From Chryseobacterium glaciei (GTDB lineage Bacteria; Bacteroidota; Bacteroidia; Flavobacteriales; Weeksellaceae): a stretch of DNA of 64,000 nt. The stretch is from contig NZ_CP015199.1 in assembly GCF_001648155.1 (NCBI RefSeq), forward strand, positions 4,225,001-4,289,000, given 5' to 3'. Below the pieces are notes generated by a model, which was given only the letters and a program-made list of their open reading frames with translations, did no database searches and was not told the DNA's origin. Below, one piece after another: positions 3,550 through 30,702 of this stretch. How positions within the stretch are numbered: position 1 is the stretch's first letter; the number at the start of each line of letters is the position of its first letter. Position numbers and translations under genes: made by a program.

Positions 3550-4491
3550 ATGTATGAGAATAATATTGTAGATATGTATTACAATAAGCTGCAGACAGAT
3601 TTCAAGGCAGAAGCTGTCGCGGTGAATCTGTTGAAATATCACAGAGCGGTAAGCAATATCTTTATTGACAGGATCGGGATCAATGACAGGGCTTATTTAA
3701 AGGATATTAAAAATATTTCAAGCAATTATTTAGGTTTTGATGAAGAAGTTTTTACGATAGAAACGTACAGAGAAGGAATTTACGATTACCTTCCTGAAGG
3801 ACTTTTTCATCCGCCTTCATTGGGTGCTACGAGAAAAAACGTTGAAAGCGTTGTTAAGGAAATCCGAAAGCAAAAAAGGGTAGAAGAAGATGCCAGAAAG
3901 TTTTTCCAACCTTTTGAATTGGAAATTTTCTTTACGGAAGTCAGTGCTTTGCTTAAAGAATTCGATTTTGACCTTACCAGCGACACCGATACTTTGCTAG
4001 AAACTGTCAGCGAACTTTGGCCTTTGGTGAAGATGCTAGATAAACAAAATGCCTATATTTTTATCTATATTTTACCGTTTTTTCATCAGATCAGAGGAGA
4101 TAAAAAATGGCTTGAAAGATGTATGACAGCATTTTTACAAGTGCCTGTAGAGGTAACTTTTGCCCCAAATGTTATTGATGGAATAGGGGGAAATAATGAT
4201 TCTATGTTATTAGGAAATTCAAAATTGGGAGTTACTTATATTCCGAGTGGGAAACATATGGACGGACAGCGAAATTGGGTAGTGAATATCGGCCCGATTC
4301 CGTATTCGGATATGAAAAAATATATTCATGGAAACCCGTTCAGAAAAGTACTTCAGGCTTTATACGATTATTTTCTTCCTGTAAGCGTAGATGTGGAAGA
4401 AAATTTTATCACAGAAAAGAAAGAATATTCATTTATGCTTGAGGATGATGGCAGAAATGCAAACCGCCTCGGATACTCTACCTTTCTGTAA
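3550..4491 (+). CDS. tssG: Type VI secretion baseplate subunit TssG (subtype iii)
   Basis: A 313-residue soluble protein ending in RLGYSTFL, which matches the LGWxTWL-type tail typical of TssG/ImpH/VasB. The middle carries the weakly conserved alpha/beta segments of that family. It is followed after 54 bp by a TssN-like membrane protein and then TssK, a partnership specific to Bacteroidota T6SS-iii. TssG sits in the baseplate wedge with TssE, TssF and TssK. Family assignment rests mainly on the C-terminal signature and the neighbours. No tssF is adjacent, which is unusual because tssF and tssG are normally paired. Confidence 0.75.
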   Translation: MYENNIVDMYYNKLQTDFKAEAVAVNLLKYHRAVSNIFIDRIGINDRAYLKDIKNISSNYLGFDEEVFTIETYREGIYDYLPEGLFHPPSLGATRKNVESVVKEIRKQKRVEEDARKFFQPFELEIFFTEVSALLKEFDFDLTSDTDTLLETVSELWPLVKMLDKQNAYIFIYILPFFHQIRGDKKWLERCMTAFLQVPVEVTFAPNVIDGIGGNNDSMLLGNSKLGVTYIPSGKHMDGQRNWVVNIGPIPYSDMKKYIHGNPFRKVLQALYDYFLPVSVDVEENFITEKKEYSFMLEDDGRNANRLGYSTFL

Positions 4492-4545
4492 AATATTTTA
4501 TTATATTTACAATCACCAACAAAATATAAATTCGAAAAGAAACAA

Positions 4546-5448
4546 ATGGAAATTTCTTCAGTTAAAGGGATCTTTTTTAGGTATATTTTAATGCCACTAA
4601 TAGCAGTTATTATGATGATTATCCTCGGAATAATCAGAAGAAACAAACCTGCTATAAAAATTAAAGTAATCATCATATACGTTCTGCTTTGCAGTTTGTG
4701 TCTTGCTTTACCTGGTTTTTTCGGGTTTGCAGGGAATTTGTTTAACCCATATTGGTATCTTATTGCACAGATTATTTACCTTATTTTTGGGATTATTCAC
4801 GTTAATTTATTAGATAAGTATTTCAAAAAACATATCGAATCTGTGTCGATGAGTATTTTGTTTGAATCAATACTTTCATTGACGTGTATCGCTTTCGGCG
4901 GATATCTTTTTTATCTGATTTTTAATTGGATGAGTAAAGGAACAGGTTACGCTATCATGTCGGCAACGAGCATGTTGATCTTTTTGGTTCCGATGGTATT
5001 TTACTATTGCTATATTCAGTTCATCAGTATTCCGTTCGATATTTATAAAACCTGGAGATATTCACCGGATCAGAGACTTCCGGACTTTGAAGGTGCAGAT
5101 TTTGATAGATTAATGGTGTTGAATGTTGAGTTAAGCAAAAATCTTGAAGACGCCAACAGATTTAGAATTAAAGCTAAAACTTTACCAACCGGAGTAACTT
5201 TCGGAGACTGGTTTTATAGAGTAGTGGATGATTATAATCACAAGAATCCGGGATCTATCATTCATTTATCAGACATTGAAAAAGAACCATATTATTGGAT
5301 CTTTTATACAAAAAAATCGTTTTTCAGTTTCAGAAGGTATATTAATTTTGATATGGATATTTCTGCAAACGGCATTTCAGAAAATGAAGTGGTGATCTGC
5401 AAAAGAGTTATCCAGCACGAAGAAGAAGGAATTACGAGAAAACCATAA
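4546..5448 (+). CDS. tssN: TssN-family T6SS-iii membrane protein
   Basis: A 300-residue inner-membrane protein. Hydrophobic segments lie near residues 9-28, 40-60, 66-90, 105-128 and 138-162, and a cytoplasmic domain of about 130 residues follows. TssN is one of the components found only in Bacteroidota T6SS and is thought to contribute to the alternative membrane complex. The call depends on topology, size and position between tssG and tssK; a profile search would settle it. An antisense frame overlapping its start is not a gene. Confidence 0.65.
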   Translation: MEISSVKGIFFRYILMPLIAVIMMIILGIIRRNKPAIKIKVIIIYVLLCSLCLALPGFFGFAGNLFNPYWYLIAQIIYLIFGIIHVNLLDKYFKKHIESVSMSILFESILSLTCIAFGGYLFYLIFNWMSKGTGYAIMSATSMLIFLVPMVFYYCYIQFISIPFDIYKTWRYSPDQRLPDFEGADFDRLMVLNVELSKNLEDANRFRIKAKTLPTGVTFGDWFYRVVDDYNHKNPGSIIHLSDIEKEPYYWIFYTKKSFFSFRRYINFDMDISANGISENEVVICKRVIQHEEEGITRKP

Positions 5449-24972: not shown

Positions 24973-26436
24973 TTACTCAATATTCTTTTTAAAATTTCTA
25001 GACAACGGTATTTCTATTTTCCCTTCCAGAAAAACGGAGGCTCCGTTATTGGAAATGATCGAATTTTTGTTAATAATAAAAGATCTGTGAACCTGCGTGA
25101 AATTGGGTGGTAATTCTTTAATGATTTCAGAAATTTTACCTCTTACAAATTCTTTCTTCTTCGATGTATAAAGCTGTAAATAATGATCTTCAGCTTTGAT
25201 ATACAAAAGTTCCTTTAAGTAGATTTTTGTTCTGTTTTTCAACACAATATGATCTTCTATGACCAATTGTTTTACTTTTTCCAGCTCCTGAATAGTCTGT
25301 GTATGCTCAATTTGCAGAGATTCTTTTTCCAGATCCAGTTTTTTCTTTGTATGGTCTACCCTCTTCCATCGAATGAAGGAATACATAGCGATAAGAAAAA
25401 CTAATCCTATCAAAACAAAATACAGTATTTTATTTTCCTGGTAACTCATTGCTATTTTTTTTAGGGAGGAGATTTGTTTATCCTTTTCAACTACCTGATA
25501 TTGGGTATTTATTTGATGAATGGCAATATTTTGTTCTGTATCATTTATTTTTTTGTTCAAATGAGTGTAAAGAGAATCATATTTTTTTCTGTTTGAATGG
25601 TCGTTCAGATGGTCATAACTTTCCTTAAACTTCTGGTATAGAAGTCTTTTAGATTTCAATTCGTATTGTTGAATGGGAACTGCTTCAGCTTTCAAAAACC
25701 AATAAACAGCTTCATTATATTTTTTTTGAATGAAAAATGAATTTCCATAATTGTAATAAAGAATGAATAATTCATATTTTATTTTATATTTTGTAGCTAG
25801 GTCAATTCCCTGAATAAAAAACTTTTCTGCTGTTTGAAAATTATCTTTTGTATAATTAAAAAGTCCGAAATTATTTAAAATTTTAACTCTCGTTTCAAGA
25901 TCAGTAGAATTTTTGCTGTAAGAATATGCAGTATCTAAAACTTTAACGGCAGCGTTAATAACTTCAACATTTTTTCTTTTATCAAAATCAAATTCATAAA
26001 ATTTTTCAATTGCTTTTTGATTGTAGGCTAATGCTAATCTTTCATTTGATCTTGTTTTGGAAGCATAATTATAGTAATCATTAAAAAAAGTATATCCATA
26101 TTTGTCATAGTTTACCTGTGAGGAAATCACTTTATGAATCTCCAGCGACAAATCGTGATACTGATTTTTATAATTTAATTTTCCAAATAGATCCCTGCTT
26201 TTCATATAATAGTAAAGCGCAGAGTCTTCCTGATTGAGATATTCAAAATTTTTGCCCAAAACATAGTCGTATTTTGCCAACTCTAGTGAGGATTTTTCGT
26301 TGAGAATATTCCTTTTTATTGTGACTATATTTTTGGGGAACTCTTCAAATTTCTGATTCTCGAGATAACCGTTCAGACTCTGAGCTTTAATGATGATTGC
26401 AGAAAATATAAGAAGTATATATCTTATTGCTTTCAT
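24973..26436 (-). CDS. Membrane-anchored TPR sensor with LytTR DNA-binding domain (operon gene 7)
   Basis: 487 residues. A signal-type N-terminus (ILLIFSAIIIKAQS), then about 300 residues of helical TPR-like repeats that should lie in the periplasm (DSALYYYMKSRDLFGKL; DNFQTAEKFFIQGIDLA; KKYNEAVYWFLKAEAV). A membrane helix (LYFVLIGLVFLIAMYSFI, about 335-355) and coiled coil follow, then a LytTR domain in about the last 95 residues (IYLKELLYIKAEDHYLQLYT, FTQVHRSFIINKNSI). It overlaps the preceding gene by ATGA, so it belongs to the caspase operon. It probably carries an envelope signal to DNA; the direct repeat at 30674-30702 is a candidate target. Confidence 0.9.
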   Translation of the reverse strand: MKAIRYILLIFSAIIIKAQSLNGYLENQKFEEFPKNIVTIKRNILNEKSSLELAKYDYVLGKNFEYLNQEDSALYYYMKSRDLFGKLNYKNQYHDLSLEIHKVISSQVNYDKYGYTFFNDYYNYASKTRSNERLALAYNQKAIEKFYEFDFDKRKNVEVINAAVKVLDTAYSYSKNSTDLETRVKILNNFGLFNYTKDNFQTAEKFFIQGIDLATKYKIKYELFILYYNYGNSFFIQKKYNEAVYWFLKAEAVPIQQYELKSKRLLYQKFKESYDHLNDHSNRKKYDSLYTHLNKKINDTEQNIAIHQINTQYQVVEKDKQISSLKKIAMSYQENKILYFVLIGLVFLIAMYSFIRWKRVDHTKKKLDLEKESLQIEHTQTIQELEKVKQLVIEDHIVLKNRTKIYLKELLYIKAEDHYLQLYTSKKKEFVRGKISEIIKELPPNFTQVHRSFIINKNSIISNNGASVFLEGKIEIPLSRNFKKNIE

Positions 26437-26936
26437 GGAAGTTCTTCTATTCTCACAACTCCTCCGTCATGTGTTTGGCGCGGAATGGGGCTCATCAAAT
26501 ACTCACACTTGTCATCTACTGGATTATTGGTATTAAACTTTGACCATTCTTTAGAATAATCAAGAAAATTTTCTGCAGTAATAGATGGATCGCAGTCAAA
26601 TCTTCTAAGTCTTGCTTCGAAATAGGGCATTAGCTTTTCAAAATCTCTATAATCGACTTCATTTAAAAAAGAAACTCTTACGTAATCATCTTTTTTCCAT
26701 CCTAAGTCATTTTTAATTATAAAACGGAAGGTCAATTCTTCATTACCATCCTCCATACATGGGGTTCCAAGATTATCATTAGAAATATTAATGACAACTC
26801 CTTTTAACGATATTCCTGGCTCTACAATGTTGATAATTTTTGCTCTTCTAAATTCAAACGGATTAATGTTTAAAATTCCTTTTAATACGACTTCAAATCT
26901 TATGTAATCGTTTTCAATTTTAATTGTACTCATCAT
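26433..26936 (-). CDS. Unknown protein (operon gene 6)
   Basis: 167 residues starting MMSTIKIENDYIRFEVVLKG; the second Met is equally possible. The first 115 residues look beta-rich (RAKIINIVEPGISLKGVVIN, ELTFRFIIKNDLGW), perhaps a beta-sandwich or barrel-type domain. The last 50 are irregular with Pro and charged residues. No catalytic motif, signal peptide or membrane segment. It lies 21 bp after the caspase gene, is preceded by the AAAAACTAAT leader word, and overlaps the LytTR gene by 4 bp. Function unknown. Confidence 0.75.
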   Translation of the reverse strand: MMSTIKIENDYIRFEVVLKGILNINPFEFRRAKIINIVEPGISLKGVVINISNDNLGTPCMEDGNEELTFRFIIKNDLGWKKDDYVRVSFLNEVDYRDFEKLMPYFEARLRRFDCDPSITAENFLDYSKEWSKFNTNNPVDDKCEYLMSPIPRQTHDGGVVRIEELP

Positions 26937-26957
26937 GATATTAGTTTTTATGGTTTA

Positions 26958-27752
26958 TTAGCTCTGGCTTAAAACAAGGGTTTTTGTTAGAAAAAATTCT
27001 TCATCTAAAAAATTTTGAATATCTCTGTCTATAAATGGCAGGTTATAGGGAAGTGTTTTTTCAACTTCATTTTTAACGGCTTCAAAAAAAGCATTGAAAG
27101 TTCCGATAAAATTACCTTCATTATACACCTTTTCAAATGCTTCTGTAAAAGGGCTTAACTGATCTTTAGCCTGACTGTCTTTCGCTACATTCCGATCTTG
27201 AGAAGACGAAATATGATTCATCAATATATTTGCTTCCTTAAATTCTTTAAAATGCAATTGAAAGCTATTGAGGTAAGGAGATACATCTTCTAAATAAAGA
27301 CTAAAACTTTTGCTGATGCTGTAGGTTGTGGTGACAGATTTTTTATTTAAAGTTCCACCATAACAACAGTCGGTTACAAGTACGACTTTAGAATTTTCTG
27401 GAAACCACGACCAGCAGTTTTTGAGTTCATCATCTATGAAATACCTATCATATAAAACTGCGATCTGATCATAACCGACATTTTCTTCTCCCGAAATATC
27501 TTTAATAGTAAAACCATGTCCGCAATAGGTTACGAAAAAAATATCTTCCGGAGTTATTTTCTTTGAAATAGCTCTAAGAGTATTTAATAAATTGATGCTT
27601 GTGGCATTTTTTCCCAACAATTCAATTGCTTCGAAATCATTTTCTTCTGCTATTTTTTTGTAAAATCTTGTACTGGCTTCAGGAGAATTGAGGCTGCTAT
27701 TACTAATGAGCGAGGTTTCATTTAAACCTATGTGTAACGAATATTTTTTCAT
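26958..27752 (-). CDS. Metacaspase/orthocaspase-like protease (peptidase C14; operon gene 5)
   Basis: 264 residues. It starts with a strand and Gly-Leu-Asn turn (YSLHIGLNET), as in bacterial caspase-like proteins. The two catalytic segments are clear: FFVTYCGHG with His79, and VVLVTDCCYGGT with Cys130 after Asp128, matching the HG and DxC patterns. The C-terminal half has ISSSQDRNVAKDS and SPFTEAFEKVY, which fit the later caspase strands. No signal peptide or extra domain, so it should be a cytosolic cysteine protease with Arg/Lys or Asp specificity undetermined. It sits inside the seven-gene operon; a cell-death or defence role is inferred. Confidence 0.9.
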   Translation of the reverse strand: MKKYSLHIGLNETSLISNSSLNSPEASTRFYKKIAEENDFEAIELLGKNATSINLLNTLRAISKKITPEDIFFVTYCGHGFTIKDISGEENVGYDQIAVLYDRYFIDDELKNCWSWFPENSKVVLVTDCCYGGTLNKKSVTTTYSISKSFSLYLEDVSPYLNSFQLHFKEFKEANILMNHISSSQDRNVAKDSQAKDQLSPFTEAFEKVYNEGNFIGTFNAFFEAVKNEVEKTLPYNLPFIDRDIQNFLDEEFFLTKTLVLSQS

Positions 27753-27775
27753 GGTATGTAGTTTTTTATTAGTTT

Positions 27776-28381
27776 TTATCCAAAATCTCTTTCATTCAAT
27801 AAGGTGTAGGTAAACTTATTTCCGAAAGCATTTCTTGCGTTTTTACATTTAAGCATGAATTCCTGAAAATGTCTTGCATCTGCAAAAACCTGGCATCCGG
27901 CTGAAAATTGAGTGTTGTCTGAATTCCAATCTCCATTAAGCGGACCTTTGTGAATATTAATTCCAAACATCCCTGTATCAATTTTTGTTAGATCAACATC
28001 TAAATTTCCATTTTTATTATCATCCCGATAGACCTTTACACTTCCTAATCTTTGACAAATTGCATCATATTTTCCCTGATGTTTATCTATACAATGTGTT
28101 CCTACATATTGTCCTTCCACTAAAATAGCCGCCCCTTTACTGTTTATAGGGTTTTTCAAATAGTGTATGCTAGGATCTGTGGTTATCGGATAATAATTCA
28201 CGTGCCAGTTCCCCATAAAGTTATGAAAAACAACTAAAGTATCATCAAATTTTTCATGTCTTAATGCTTTATTTCTTATTCCAACGATGTTGATGTTCCA
28301 ATCTACTTCGGGAGTGTTGTAAATTCTGTAGTTTTTAGAATTCATAACATTCAAAATGCTGTTGATGTTTGGCTGTATCAT
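27776..28381 (-). CDS. YkuD-like (L,D-transpeptidase-type) Cys/His protein without signal peptide (operon gene 4)
   Basis: 201 residues. The segment MFGINIHKG (His144) followed 15 residues later by FSAGCQVF (Ser160, Gly162, Cys163) has the spacing of the YkuD catalytic motif HX14-17SxGC. The upstream half (HNFMGNWHVNYYPITTDPSI, GAAILVEGQYVGTHCIDKHQ) resembles the beta platform of phage or plasmid proteins with this fold. There is no signal peptide, unlike L,D-transpeptidases that work in the periplasm. It starts 5 bp after the barrel gene. It could be a cell-wall enzyme exported by another route, or a repurposed cysteine hydrolase. Confidence 0.7.
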   Translation of the reverse strand: MIQPNINSILNVMNSKNYRIYNTPEVDWNINIVGIRNKALRHEKFDDTLVVFHNFMGNWHVNYYPITTDPSIHYLKNPINSKGAAILVEGQYVGTHCIDKHQGKYDAICQRLGSVKVYRDDNKNGNLDVDLTKIDTGMFGINIHKGPLNGDWNSDNTQFSAGCQVFADARHFQEFMLKCKNARNAFGNKFTYTLLNERDFG

Positions 28382-28386
28382 GGTGA

Positions 28387-29481
28387 TTAGTTTTTTGTTT
28401 TAGGATTGTTTACAAATCCCCAACTAATTCCTAAAAAAGTAATTAAATTGGTATTCGAAATTTCAAAGTTTTTTCCAAATCCTCCATTGAAAGTCAATTC
28501 GTTGCTGAATTTCCATTGAATTTGCCCGACAGAGCGATAATCTCCTCCATCACCATTTCTTTTAACATATTCATAAGCTGTTGAAAATTTCTTACTCAAA
28601 ACAACCTGAAGTTTAAGTCCAAAATCTGTAAATTGACTGGTAGATAGTATTTTATCCTCGATGTAATTATCTTTTAAATATCTTAGAAAAAAGTAGAATT
28701 TAAAAAAACGAGTATAGTCTTTATTTAAATTAAAAGATAAACCAAGCGTAGACCAAATTCCATATCTATCCGTTCTGAAAGAAGAAATTCTGTTATTTGG
28801 AGATATTGAACTGTAAGCACCAGATACGTCTAGGGTTACCATTGGGTTTTTTAATTGATTTATAAAACTTGACAATTTTTCCTCAACTTTCAATTCCTTT
28901 TTAATATTATCCTTTTCTTTTTCAAGTAGTATTGTATATTTTTCATATTCGTCTGTAGTTACAGATGGTTCATCAATCCCTTTTTCTTTAAGTTTTTCTT
29001 TAGCCTTTTCAGTTATTTCATCATCATTAGCTATTGTTTCAAACAACTCATGAAGTTCTTTAGGTGAAGAATTGTATAGTGTTAAAATATTTGTTCTTGC
29101 CCCAAAGGCTATAGTTGTTGCAGAATCTTTTGGAATAGCATTCAATGAAAGGGTTATTTTACTTAAATTATGAAAACCACTACTTTCATATTTAAAAGTT
29201 GAATCTGTATCTTTTAATCCAAAAAACTCATATCCTTCATACTTCTTTTTATTAAGATAATAGAAAGGTGTGACTTCTACAGATAGGTTTGATAAGTTAT
29301 TGGTATTTAAACTTAGCTGTTTAGGTATAGAGTTTGCAAAAACTATACTTGGGCTGTTATCAAGTAAAGCCATACTAACCGATTGAGTATTATCAATATC
29401 TTTTATGCTCAGATCAGTTCCAGATTGCGATTTTATAAGTATGCAACAAAATATAAAAATCGTTTGTATTGTTGTTTTCAT
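28387..29481 (-). CDS. Predicted outer-membrane beta-barrel protein (operon gene 3)
   Basis: 364 residues with a signal peptide (TIQTIFIFCCILIKSQS). A periplasmic beta-rich domain (residues about 25-140) is followed by a Lys/Glu-rich helical or coiled-coil stretch (about 150-205) and then repeated amphipathic strands (PMVTLDVSGAYSS, IWSTLGLSFNLN, FKFYFFLRYL, LKLQVVLSKKFSTAYEYV), ending near FLGISWGF. This resembles a small outer-membrane barrel. It overlaps the preceding gene by ATGA. No family recognised; its place beside caspase and sensor genes suggests a surface or envelope role. Confidence 0.7.
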   Translation of the reverse strand: MKTTIQTIFIFCCILIKSQSGTDLSIKDIDNTQSVSMALLDNSPSIVFANSIPKQLSLNTNNLSNLSVEVTPFYYLNKKKYEGYEFFGLKDTDSTFKYESSGFHNLSKITLSLNAIPKDSATTIAFGARTNILTLYNSSPKELHELFETIANDDEITEKAKEKLKEKGIDEPSVTTDEYEKYTILLEKEKDNIKKELKVEEKLSSFINQLKNPMVTLDVSGAYSSISPNNRISSFRTDRYGIWSTLGLSFNLNKDYTRFFKFYFFLRYLKDNYIEDKILSTSQFTDFGLKLQVVLSKKFSTAYEYVKRNGDGGDYRSVGQIQWKFSNELTFNGGFGKNFEISNTNLITFLGISWGFVNNPKTKN

Positions 29482-29894
29482 ATTAAATCTATAATTTTTA
29501 ATAAAATCACTTTATTTCCTCTTTCACTTTGAATTGGTATCAACTTATCATAAGAATCATAAGTAATATCTCCTTGGCTTCCACCACTAATTTTATAATT
29601 AAATTGAAGCAATTTTAAAAGATCTTCCAAATTGTCTTCATCTGCATATCCAATATGTGATTCAATTACAACCGTTCCTTTTTTATGATAAGATTCTGTA
29701 CCAATCAATGTTTTAGGTATGTTAATCTTGGAATCTTTGGACGATGTAATAGTTGTTTTATGGAGATACAAGTCTCCTATCAGTTTATACTCAAGCTGTA
29801 AAAATGTGCGGAGTGGGAATAGTTCGATCACATTAGATAAATTAAAACTAGCATAGATCTTATTGTTCGTTTTCCCTGTTTCATACTTTTCCAT
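29478..29894 (-). CDS. Unknown protein (operon gene 2)
   Basis: 138 residues from the ATG at 29894 (MEKYETGKTNNK). The frame stays open to an ATG at 29954, but that start would lie inside the preceding gene, and the region before 29894 resembles the leaders of other operon members. Mixed beta-rich sequence (YASFNLSNVIELFPLRTFLQ, GTVVIESHIGYADEDNLEDL). No signal peptide or membrane helix. It overlaps the barrel gene by ATGA. Not recognised; a small binding or adaptor domain is possible. Confidence 0.65.
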   Translation of the reverse strand: MEKYETGKTNNKIYASFNLSNVIELFPLRTFLQLEYKLIGDLYLHKTTITSSKDSKINIPKTLIGTESYHKKGTVVIESHIGYADEDNLEDLLKLLQFNYKISGGSQGDITYDSYDKLIPIQSERGNKVILLKIIDLI

Positions 29895-29931
29895 AATTCT
29901 GATTTTTATTTGGTTATTGTTTTTTAATGAT

Positions 29932-30609
29932 TTATTCCATAATTTTTTCGGCATCTTCAGTTAAAGCCACTGCTTTTTCACCTTTTCGAAGCTCGATTTC
30001 TTTTACAAGATTGTTGTTTTTTAGGATTTCGATTTTTTTGTCGATTTCGGTATTGTCTTGATTTACTTCTGTTTTGATGAGGTCAATAGGTCGGAATTTG
30101 TTCTCTTTGTTTTTGATAGAGTTCATGATTTCTGTATAATGCGGTGTTTTGAATTTTTCCAACTCGCTAGCATTAATTTGAGGATTACTCTCTGTACTTA
30201 CGGCGATTGTTTCTACAGTTTTGCTTAGCTGTTCAATTTCAGATTTAACTTGTTTATTATCTTCCTTTAAATTTTGCATTACTCTCCCTGAAATATTATT
30301 TAAAAAGTCCAAAGACGCATAAGAAGCAATAATGCAAAATCCGGAAAAGATTAAATAATTGACAGAATGCCCGTCTGTTCCCTTTTTTACAATGTATAAA
30401 CTACTTATAATATCGCTTGAGACTAAACTAAGAAAAAGAGGTACGGCGATAGAAGCAATAATTCCTAGACAGATATTTTTTGATAAGACGACTCCGCTAC
30501 AGGTTGTACCTCTCAATGTGTTTCCTACTCCGCCAACAATTCCGCAAATGAGCATGATATAAATTAAATTAATTGTCGGCCCGCTTAAAAAGTTTAGTAA
30601 AGTTAACAT
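29932..30609 (-). CDS. Three-TM membrane protein with coiled coil and winged-helix-like tail (operon gene 1)
   Basis: 225 residues. Three hydrophobic helices (about 13-31, 46-66, 84-104) are followed by a coiled coil (about 108-136) and a 70-residue cytoplasmic tail. The tail ends IDKKIEILKNNNLVKEIELR and then KAVALTEDAEKI, the cadence of a winged helix with wing and C-terminal helix, as in MarR. From memory, three-TM proteins of this style were linked to prokaryotic YEATS domains in computational surveys of conflict systems, but I cannot verify membership. First gene of the operon, with a good promoter 26 bp upstream. Confidence 0.75.
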   Translation of the reverse strand: MLTLLNFLSGPTINLIYIMLICGIVGGVGNTLRGTTCSGVVLSKNICLGIIASIAVPLFLSLVSSDIISSLYIVKKGTDGHSVNYLIFSGFCIIASYASLDFLNNISGRVMQNLKEDNKQVKSEIEQLSKTVETIAVSTESNPQINASELEKFKTPHYTEIMNSIKNKENKFRPIDLIKTEVNQDNTEIDKKIEILKNNNLVKEIELRKGEKAVALTEDAEKIME

Positions 30610-30634
30610 GGTTATTAGTTTTTGTTTCCTGAGA

Positions 30635-30702
30635 CAAAGTTTGTTATTAATCAGCGCTCTAGCAAATAAATGTCGTGAATGACATGAAAAATAACGTGAA
30701 TG
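30635..30702 (-). promoter_or_regulatory. Promoter and LytTR-type direct repeat of the caspase operon
   Basis: On the minus strand TTTG (30663-30666), a 20-bp spacer and AAACTTTG (30635-30642, 7 of 8 to TAnnTTTG) form a promoter. Immediately upstream, CGTGAATG occurs twice in direct orientation on the plus strand (30674-30681 and 30695-30702), exactly 21 bp apart. That is the geometry of LytTR binding sites. The last gene of the operon encodes a LytTR protein. The binding is inferred. Confidence 0.6.

Follow-up and report, generated by a model that had tools for sequence, protein, structure and literature searches.

Within a 64,000-nucleotide stretch of Chryseobacterium glaciei DNA (NZ_CP015199.1, positions 4,225,001 to 4,289,000, hereafter the window), seven minus-strand open reading frames (ORFs), designated here genes A to G, follow one another at 24973-30609 with short or overlapping gaps. 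Since the product of gene D is related to phage lysis proteins, this operon couples a caspase-like protease, encoded by gene E, to a phage-type lysin, and the lysin, rather than the caspase alone, is most likely the executor. We read the operon as a signal-induced, protease-gated self-lysis module, to which we give about an even chance of being correct. What is new is the phage-type lysin as the probable executor, together with the parallels that we found beside other bacterial caspases; operons of the YLATT/caspase kind and caspase-amidase fusions (2012) were already known.

Gene D belongs to a phage protein family

Searches with D returned 26 phage records and 588 viral relatives, and the protein matched phrog_3000 and phrog_33083 (endolysin), with which it is homologous in sequence and shares the identical His and Cys. 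A small transmembrane, holin-like gene adjoined the D relative at 38 of 79 viral loci versus 32 of 320 control genes, as judged by a simple hydropathy cut, near-duplicates being among the viral contigs used (L109, one of the 80 loci, had no called D gene). D thus belongs to a large phage family whose members often adjoin holin-like genes, and its putative activity is directed at the cell wall. It differs from its phage homologues in being chromosomal, in lacking a recognized adjoining holin and in lying inside a caspase operon. Comparison of A with the holin-like genes that adjoin D in phages gave hhalign probabilities of only 0.1-0.4%, holins being diverse.

The predicted model of D (predicted local distance difference test score, pLDDT, 92.6) has a fold of the L,D-transpeptidase type, with structure matches of moderate Z that form a consistent list headed, among solved folds, by Pgp2, Csd6 and Bd1075. 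This fold and the residues H...S-x-G-C, the motif of the YkuD/L,D-transpeptidase superfamily, place D in that superfamily. The sequence-only reading of this DNA had called D YkuD-like, and motif, phage homologues and predicted fold agree with it, though the Pfam YkuD models gave no match at E up to 1. Nor was any sequence relative with a solved structure found at E up to 1 with a four-row profile (A1), and a hydropathy scan flagged no transmembrane or signal-like segment in D.

Relatives of D were found in 5 of 173 Chryseobacterium genomes, 4 of 246 genomes of the family sample and 9 of 395 of the phylum sample. The fourth genome of the family sample (G031) has a lone homologue amid what we read as phage-like genes, and no other operon gene was found beside D in the phylum sample, where the contexts of six of the eight other genomes were read. 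At two loci in other Bacteroidota (L087 and L088), a D relative lies two genes away from another endolysin-like gene (PHROG lysis matches of 9.7e-6 and 1.4e-5). In Pseudoalteromonas phage ACA1 (L057) the D homologue is flanked by tail tube and tail chaperone genes, apart from a recognized lysis cassette.

Caspases related to E lie beside varied wall enzymes

Gene E encodes a peptidase C14 protein (PF00656, 40.9 bits against a cut-off of 21.4), and the His79/Cys130 pair ascribed to it by the sequence-only reading is present and invariant in seven aligned caspases. Its score against NCBIfam NF047832 (Caspase, EACC1-associated type) fell below the cut-off (24.9 vs 140 bits). E-like caspases were found at 1e-6 in 8 of 395 Bacteroidota genomes, the source genome counted; the neighbours of six of these loci were listed, one (a subtilase beside L197) was put to Pfam, and wall enzymes were not counted there.

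On plasmids, relatives of E occurred in 21 of 72,556 records. Eighteen were opened, and 11 of these carried wall-enzyme genes within the 6-7 kb viewed. The neighbours were of CHAP type (L061, L097 and L202), GH19 (L096, L099 and L200), a chitosanase with YkuD_2 (L080, L101 and L201, the chitosanase by annotation only), a divergently oriented phage lysozyme (L082) and GH108 (L204). In two further records the caspase is fused to Amidase_2 (L203) or PG_binding_1 (L081); the former, a 994-residue ORF of Kovacikia minuta (L203:3940-6921), has Amidase_2 near its N-terminus and the caspase domain near its C-terminus. No wall enzyme was seen near the caspase in L060, L095, L098, L100 and L205, where most hypothetical proteins were unscanned. 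Nine rhizobial caspases share 60-100% identity and yet adjoin three different kinds of wall enzyme, or none (L095), indicating that the partner has been exchanged. In L095 (R. leguminosarum 248) a YLATT gene directly adjoins the caspase, so that YLATT and caspase are linked outside Bacteroidota too.

As a control, three 50-kb stretches taken from three of these plasmids (104 features in all) contained no annotated lysin, one GH3 protein being excluded; these stretches were judged by annotation alone and so less closely than the caspase loci. Five plasmid records (L096, L097, L099, L200 and L203) had no gene table, and Pfam was applied to chosen genes (nine lysin or peptidase candidates and a few more), L099 and L200 being counted by their similarity to L096. 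Some matches are thin: the one to GH19 in L096 covers 35 residues, those to CHAP in L061 and L097 barely exceed the cut-off, and in L202 CHAP is under the cut-off and PG_binding_1 over it. The set is small, partly related and was selected for its resemblance to E, and the control is looser, so we describe a pattern and claim no significance for it. Our tentative reading, at somewhat less than even chances, is that E-group caspases gate exchangeable lysins of phage type that bacteria have domesticated, an arrangement that would parallel caspase-gasdermin death but be directed at the wall and would have been assembled repeatedly. Its partners would range over YkuD-fold, CHAP, GH19, chitosanase with YkuD_2, phage lysozyme and GH108 enzymes, sometimes fused, and the Chryseobacterium operon, equipped with an envelope sensor, a swappable B+C pair and a transcriptional switch of its own, would be the most elaborate form seen.

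Association of caspase homologues with wall-directed domains has precedents. Asplund-Samuelsson et al. (2012; PMC3501461) listed Amidase_2 in 4 of 671 metacaspases and a peptidoglycan-binding domain in 11, and argued for a role in cell death. Here too a caspase-type protease has a wall-directed partner, but that partner is a phage-type YkuD-fold enzyme encoded in the same operon, alongside YLATT, a regulator and the products of B, C and F, and varied wall enzymes adjoin related caspases. Genes for a metacaspase and for a murein amidase are reported from one cyanobiont (PMC3688857), and lysozyme and papain-like wall peptidases are named as effector domains of trypsin-linked conflict operons (PMC7159879). 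The orthocaspase MaOC1 likewise adjoins a toxic activity, a toxin-antitoxin pair, and regulates its availability (PMC7935541); the putative toxic activity in our operon is instead a wall enzyme. In the text searched of three papers on caspase homologues (PMC8283722, PMC5756287 and PMC6426788), amidase, peptidoglycan and lysozyme were absent, and the corresponding text of PMC7475262 mentions peptidoglycan solely in the context of cell morphology. Among the open-access articles searched we found no paper on YLATT and recognized none describing a caspase-endolysin operon.

The operon is collinear in four genomes

The operon is complete and collinear from A to G in C. polytrichastri (L002 and L024, one locus), C. 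limigenitum (L003 and L084, again one locus) and a further Chryseobacterium genome, G678 (L085). With a variant in a fifth genome, it is present in 5 of 173 genomes of the genus. The shared order indicates that the seven genes are not a random set of ORFs, and the linkage proposed in the sequence-only reading therefore holds, with a patchy spread. In the variant (G192, L023), A to D are kept, the caspase protein differs and is longer (487 residues), F is absent and G has diverged. Some details of the earlier description needed revision. Only two ATGA overlaps exist (B/C and F/G) in place of the three reported; A and B are separated by a gap of about 37 bp if B begins at the inner ATG near 29894, and with that start all gaps are 38 bp or less, as had been stated. 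This start is the most likely one, judging from the short B of three relatives (L002_06, 138 residues; L003_06, 134; L023_09, 142), while the B of L085 was called in its long form (158 residues). Upstream of the operon a single conserved region was detected. A, D and F are each preceded by a leader that reads ACTAAT..CCATG or nearly so (30619, 28391 and 26945, minus strand), and these account for three of its four matches in the 64 kb.

Table 1. Positions of the operon genes and the upstream repeat in the window (aa, amino acids; TM, transmembrane)
Feature	Position	Strand	Evidence
Operator-like direct repeat upstream of A, ATTCACG-N14-ATTCACG (period 21 bp)	30674..30701	-	conserved in five operons
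Gene A, YLATT multi-TM protein, 225 aa	29932..30609	-	PF20303 E 1.4e-23; relatives aligned
Gene B, soluble, ~138 aa (ORF from 29954)	29478..29894	-	short length in three relatives
Gene C, envelope/outer-membrane barrel candidate, 364 aa	28387..29481	-	signal-like N-terminus by eye; profile match to sister C-like genes
Gene D, putative phage-type YkuD-fold wall enzyme, H144/C163, 201 aa	27776..28381	-	phage homologues, PHROG matches, predicted fold
Gene E, caspase-like protease (peptidase C14), H79/C130, 264 aa	26958..27752	-	PF00656 E 2.5e-10; dyad invariant, 7 rows
Gene F, variable, near-invariant C-terminal tail, 167 aa	26433..26936	-	3-row alignment
Gene G, TPR - TM - LytTR regulator, 487 aa	24973..26436	-	PF04397 6.9e-16, TPR_12 5.6e-7

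Gene G is the probable regulator of the operon

Gene G was rightly described as a TPR-LytTR transmembrane regulator: Pfam recognizes both domains (Table 1), and hydrophobic segments lie at residues 3-21 (N-terminal and signal-like) and 334-352. Since the TPR part is placed between the two segments, the sensor part most likely faces the periplasm. The LytTR domain is accompanied by an upstream direct repeat in five of five operons, the pairing by which a LytTR-controlled operon is recognized. The second half of the repeat is identical in all five, and the first half has one base altered in the other four. In the variant operon the repeat region is retained and the sequence further upstream has diverged; the LytTR part of its G is 81% identical to that of the window and the sensor part 25%. 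No second exact copy of the repeat pattern occurs in the genome, and the reversed control gave none, even one match by chance being improbable; because the pattern was derived from the site itself, the lone genome match shows only that a second copy is absent. A 21-bp direct repeat suits LytTR proteins, so that G most likely controls the operon through this putative operator.

Genes A, B, C and F show unequal conservation

Gene A is a YLATT protein (PF20303, 83.2 bits against a cut-off of 26.7), a family reportedly described by Burroughs and Aravind in 2020. It had been presented as a three-transmembrane protein with a winged-helix-like tail; its multi-transmembrane nature stands, but the hydropathy scan flags four hydrophobic segments and the tail was not established. 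No YEATS partner was recovered in this operon: Pfam at E up to 1 found no pYEATS domain among the seven proteins; pYEATS occurs only in two sister operons, as an extension of YLATT that is above the cut-off in L028 (28.7 vs 26.9 bits) and below it in L027 (23.7).

YLATT was matched in 12 of 246 genomes of the family sample and 10 of 395 of the phylum sample. Seven of the twelve genes in the family sample (L025-L031, Chryseobacterium) belong to a second operon type with a histidine kinase, a LuxR regulator and a multi-transmembrane protein, several having proteins with YDxGxLxP-like tails. Of these, L026 was identified by Pfam, with the histidine kinase and LuxR-type response regulator inside the operon, enolase and citrate synthase on one side and RpoA on the other; the other six were assigned by matching gene lengths and order. 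Our operon thus resembles the YEATS-associated YLATT conflict operons (PF20303; NCBI 'YEATS-associated helix-containing protein') in that A is a YLATT protein, and three sister operons (L027, L028 and L031) also have a C-like gene, to which C is related with an hhalign probability of 99.4% (2.9e-21). It differs from them in lacking a pYEATS domain, in containing a phage-type lysin, and in having a LytTR regulator in place of the histidine kinase and LuxR regulator of L026. C is predicted to be an envelope protein and a candidate outer-membrane barrel, from its signal-like start read by eye and its homology to similar predicted proteins. No homology was found by hhalign among F, B and the C-terminal region of the variant caspase, nor between any of these and the small or tail proteins of the sister operons.

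Protein identity to C. limigenitum is 77% for A, 90% for D, 87% for E and 92% for G, versus 34% for B, 37% for C and 63% for F. At the DNA level (150-base windows), identity is 54-62% across B and C (29,860-28,660) and 69-73% in F, with most other windows of the operon at 79-97% and a single one, in A, at 67%. In G678, B and C are at 94-100% and F is again variable (64-81%). Given this low identity against the rest of the operon, B and C look like one exchanged unit, as would be expected for matched partners. F is 63-65% identical overall, but its last 18 residues, PIPRQT[HQ]DGGVVR[IV]EELP, are nearly fixed while the remainder varies (three-row alignment). Because this tail has an Arg after Pro-Ile-Pro and bacterial metacaspases are said to cleave after Arg or Lys (PMC4933709), F is a candidate caspase substrate or docking protein. 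The model of F was poor (pLDDT 65; best PDB match, E 1.1), and we claim nothing from its structure.

A model for caspase-gated lysis and its alternatives

In the mechanism that we propose, G, with a periplasmic TPR sensor, a transmembrane segment and a cytosolic LytTR domain, would bind the 21-bp repeat and switch on the operon. A in the membrane and B and C in the envelope would together do the sensing or triggering, with B and C as a matched, swappable pair. A trigger, possibly phage infection, would activate caspase E, which would cut a partner, most simply F or part of an A-B-C complex. The cut would release the cytosolic YkuD-fold protein D or expose it to peptidoglycan, and the cell would lyse. 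The sequence-only reading had proposed an envelope-sensing, caspase-executed conflict or suicide system; the linkage, the patchy spread, the caspase, YLATT, the regulator with its repeat and an exchangeable site fit that proposal, and neither a YEATS partner in this operon nor a defence-island setting is supported.

The same parts could serve programmed lysis outside defence, for example in envelope stress, development, or release of DNA or vesicles in a population. G is probably outward-looking, with its TPR part between two hydrophobic segments, no phage sensor was recognized and the operon's neighbours do not read as defence genes, all of which suit such a role. It also has a precedent in LypABC, a CARD-NLR-like lysis system in which an immune-like module serves lysis for gene transfer agents (PMC13236601). 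Our operon resembles LypABC as a protease-containing, immune-like module that would control host lysis, but Pfam found no NLR-type or trypsin domain in the seven proteins, and the operon carries a lysin gene. A spread limited to 5 of 173 genomes, and the exchange of B+C and of F as blocks, are better suited to conflict genes than to a fixed physiological programme, and we consider non-defence lysis unlikely.

Two further explanations assign D another role. It might be a sensor, a decoy or a wall modifier, with altered crosslinks blocking phage entry or lysis and E and the others acting in regulation. Its highest-scoring solved folds are those of Pgp2, Csd6 and Bd1075, cell-shape proteins that trim the wall; however, the enrichment of D's viral relatives next to holin-like genes, and the pairing of several other E-like caspases with frankly lytic enzyme families, make this role quite improbable. 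Least probable of all is a weapon or self/non-self unit acting between bacteria, in which D, like the YkuD-fold Tlde1a, would be an effector on neighbours exported via A and C. Pfam found no VgrG-type domain in the seven proteins, D has no transmembrane or signal-like segment, and its conservation (82-94%) while B and C vary is the reverse of what a diversifying effector would show.

To our knowledge, the targets cut by bacterial caspases are mostly unknown, and a caspase encoded beside a phage-derived lysin provides a concrete, testable effector. If E does license D, a viral lysis enzyme has been turned into a bacterial death switch, and the recurrence with unrelated wall enzymes would point to a general use of bacterial caspases. 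The operon is also compact enough for sensor, operator, protease and effector to be distinguished by removing genes one at a time.

Genomic setting

In L002 and L085 the operon is flanked by a LOG-family gene and a MarR-GNAT gene; in L003 the LOG gene was detected by its end only, and in the window AraC and MFS genes also intervene. At this junction a close relative, G210 (GNAT gene 95% identical), has a VgrG-type gene (Phage_base_V 6.5e-17; L239:2550-8827), whose partner genes had no Pfam matches. The presence of this cassette at the same junction shows that the operon site is exchangeable. A defence-island setting was considered and rejected: the neighbours in the window read as metabolic, MFS and AraC genes, by eye except for LOG and MarR-GNAT, which were put to Pfam. 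PADLOC returned only its generic caspase model (22.7 bits) for the seven proteins and no named anti-phage system, and among ten proteins of related loci it matched the caspase model in five and nothing else. About 20 kb from the operon, on the plus strand (3550-5448), the window also contains genes for the type VI secretion proteins TssG (3.4e-6) and TssN (1.8e-85).

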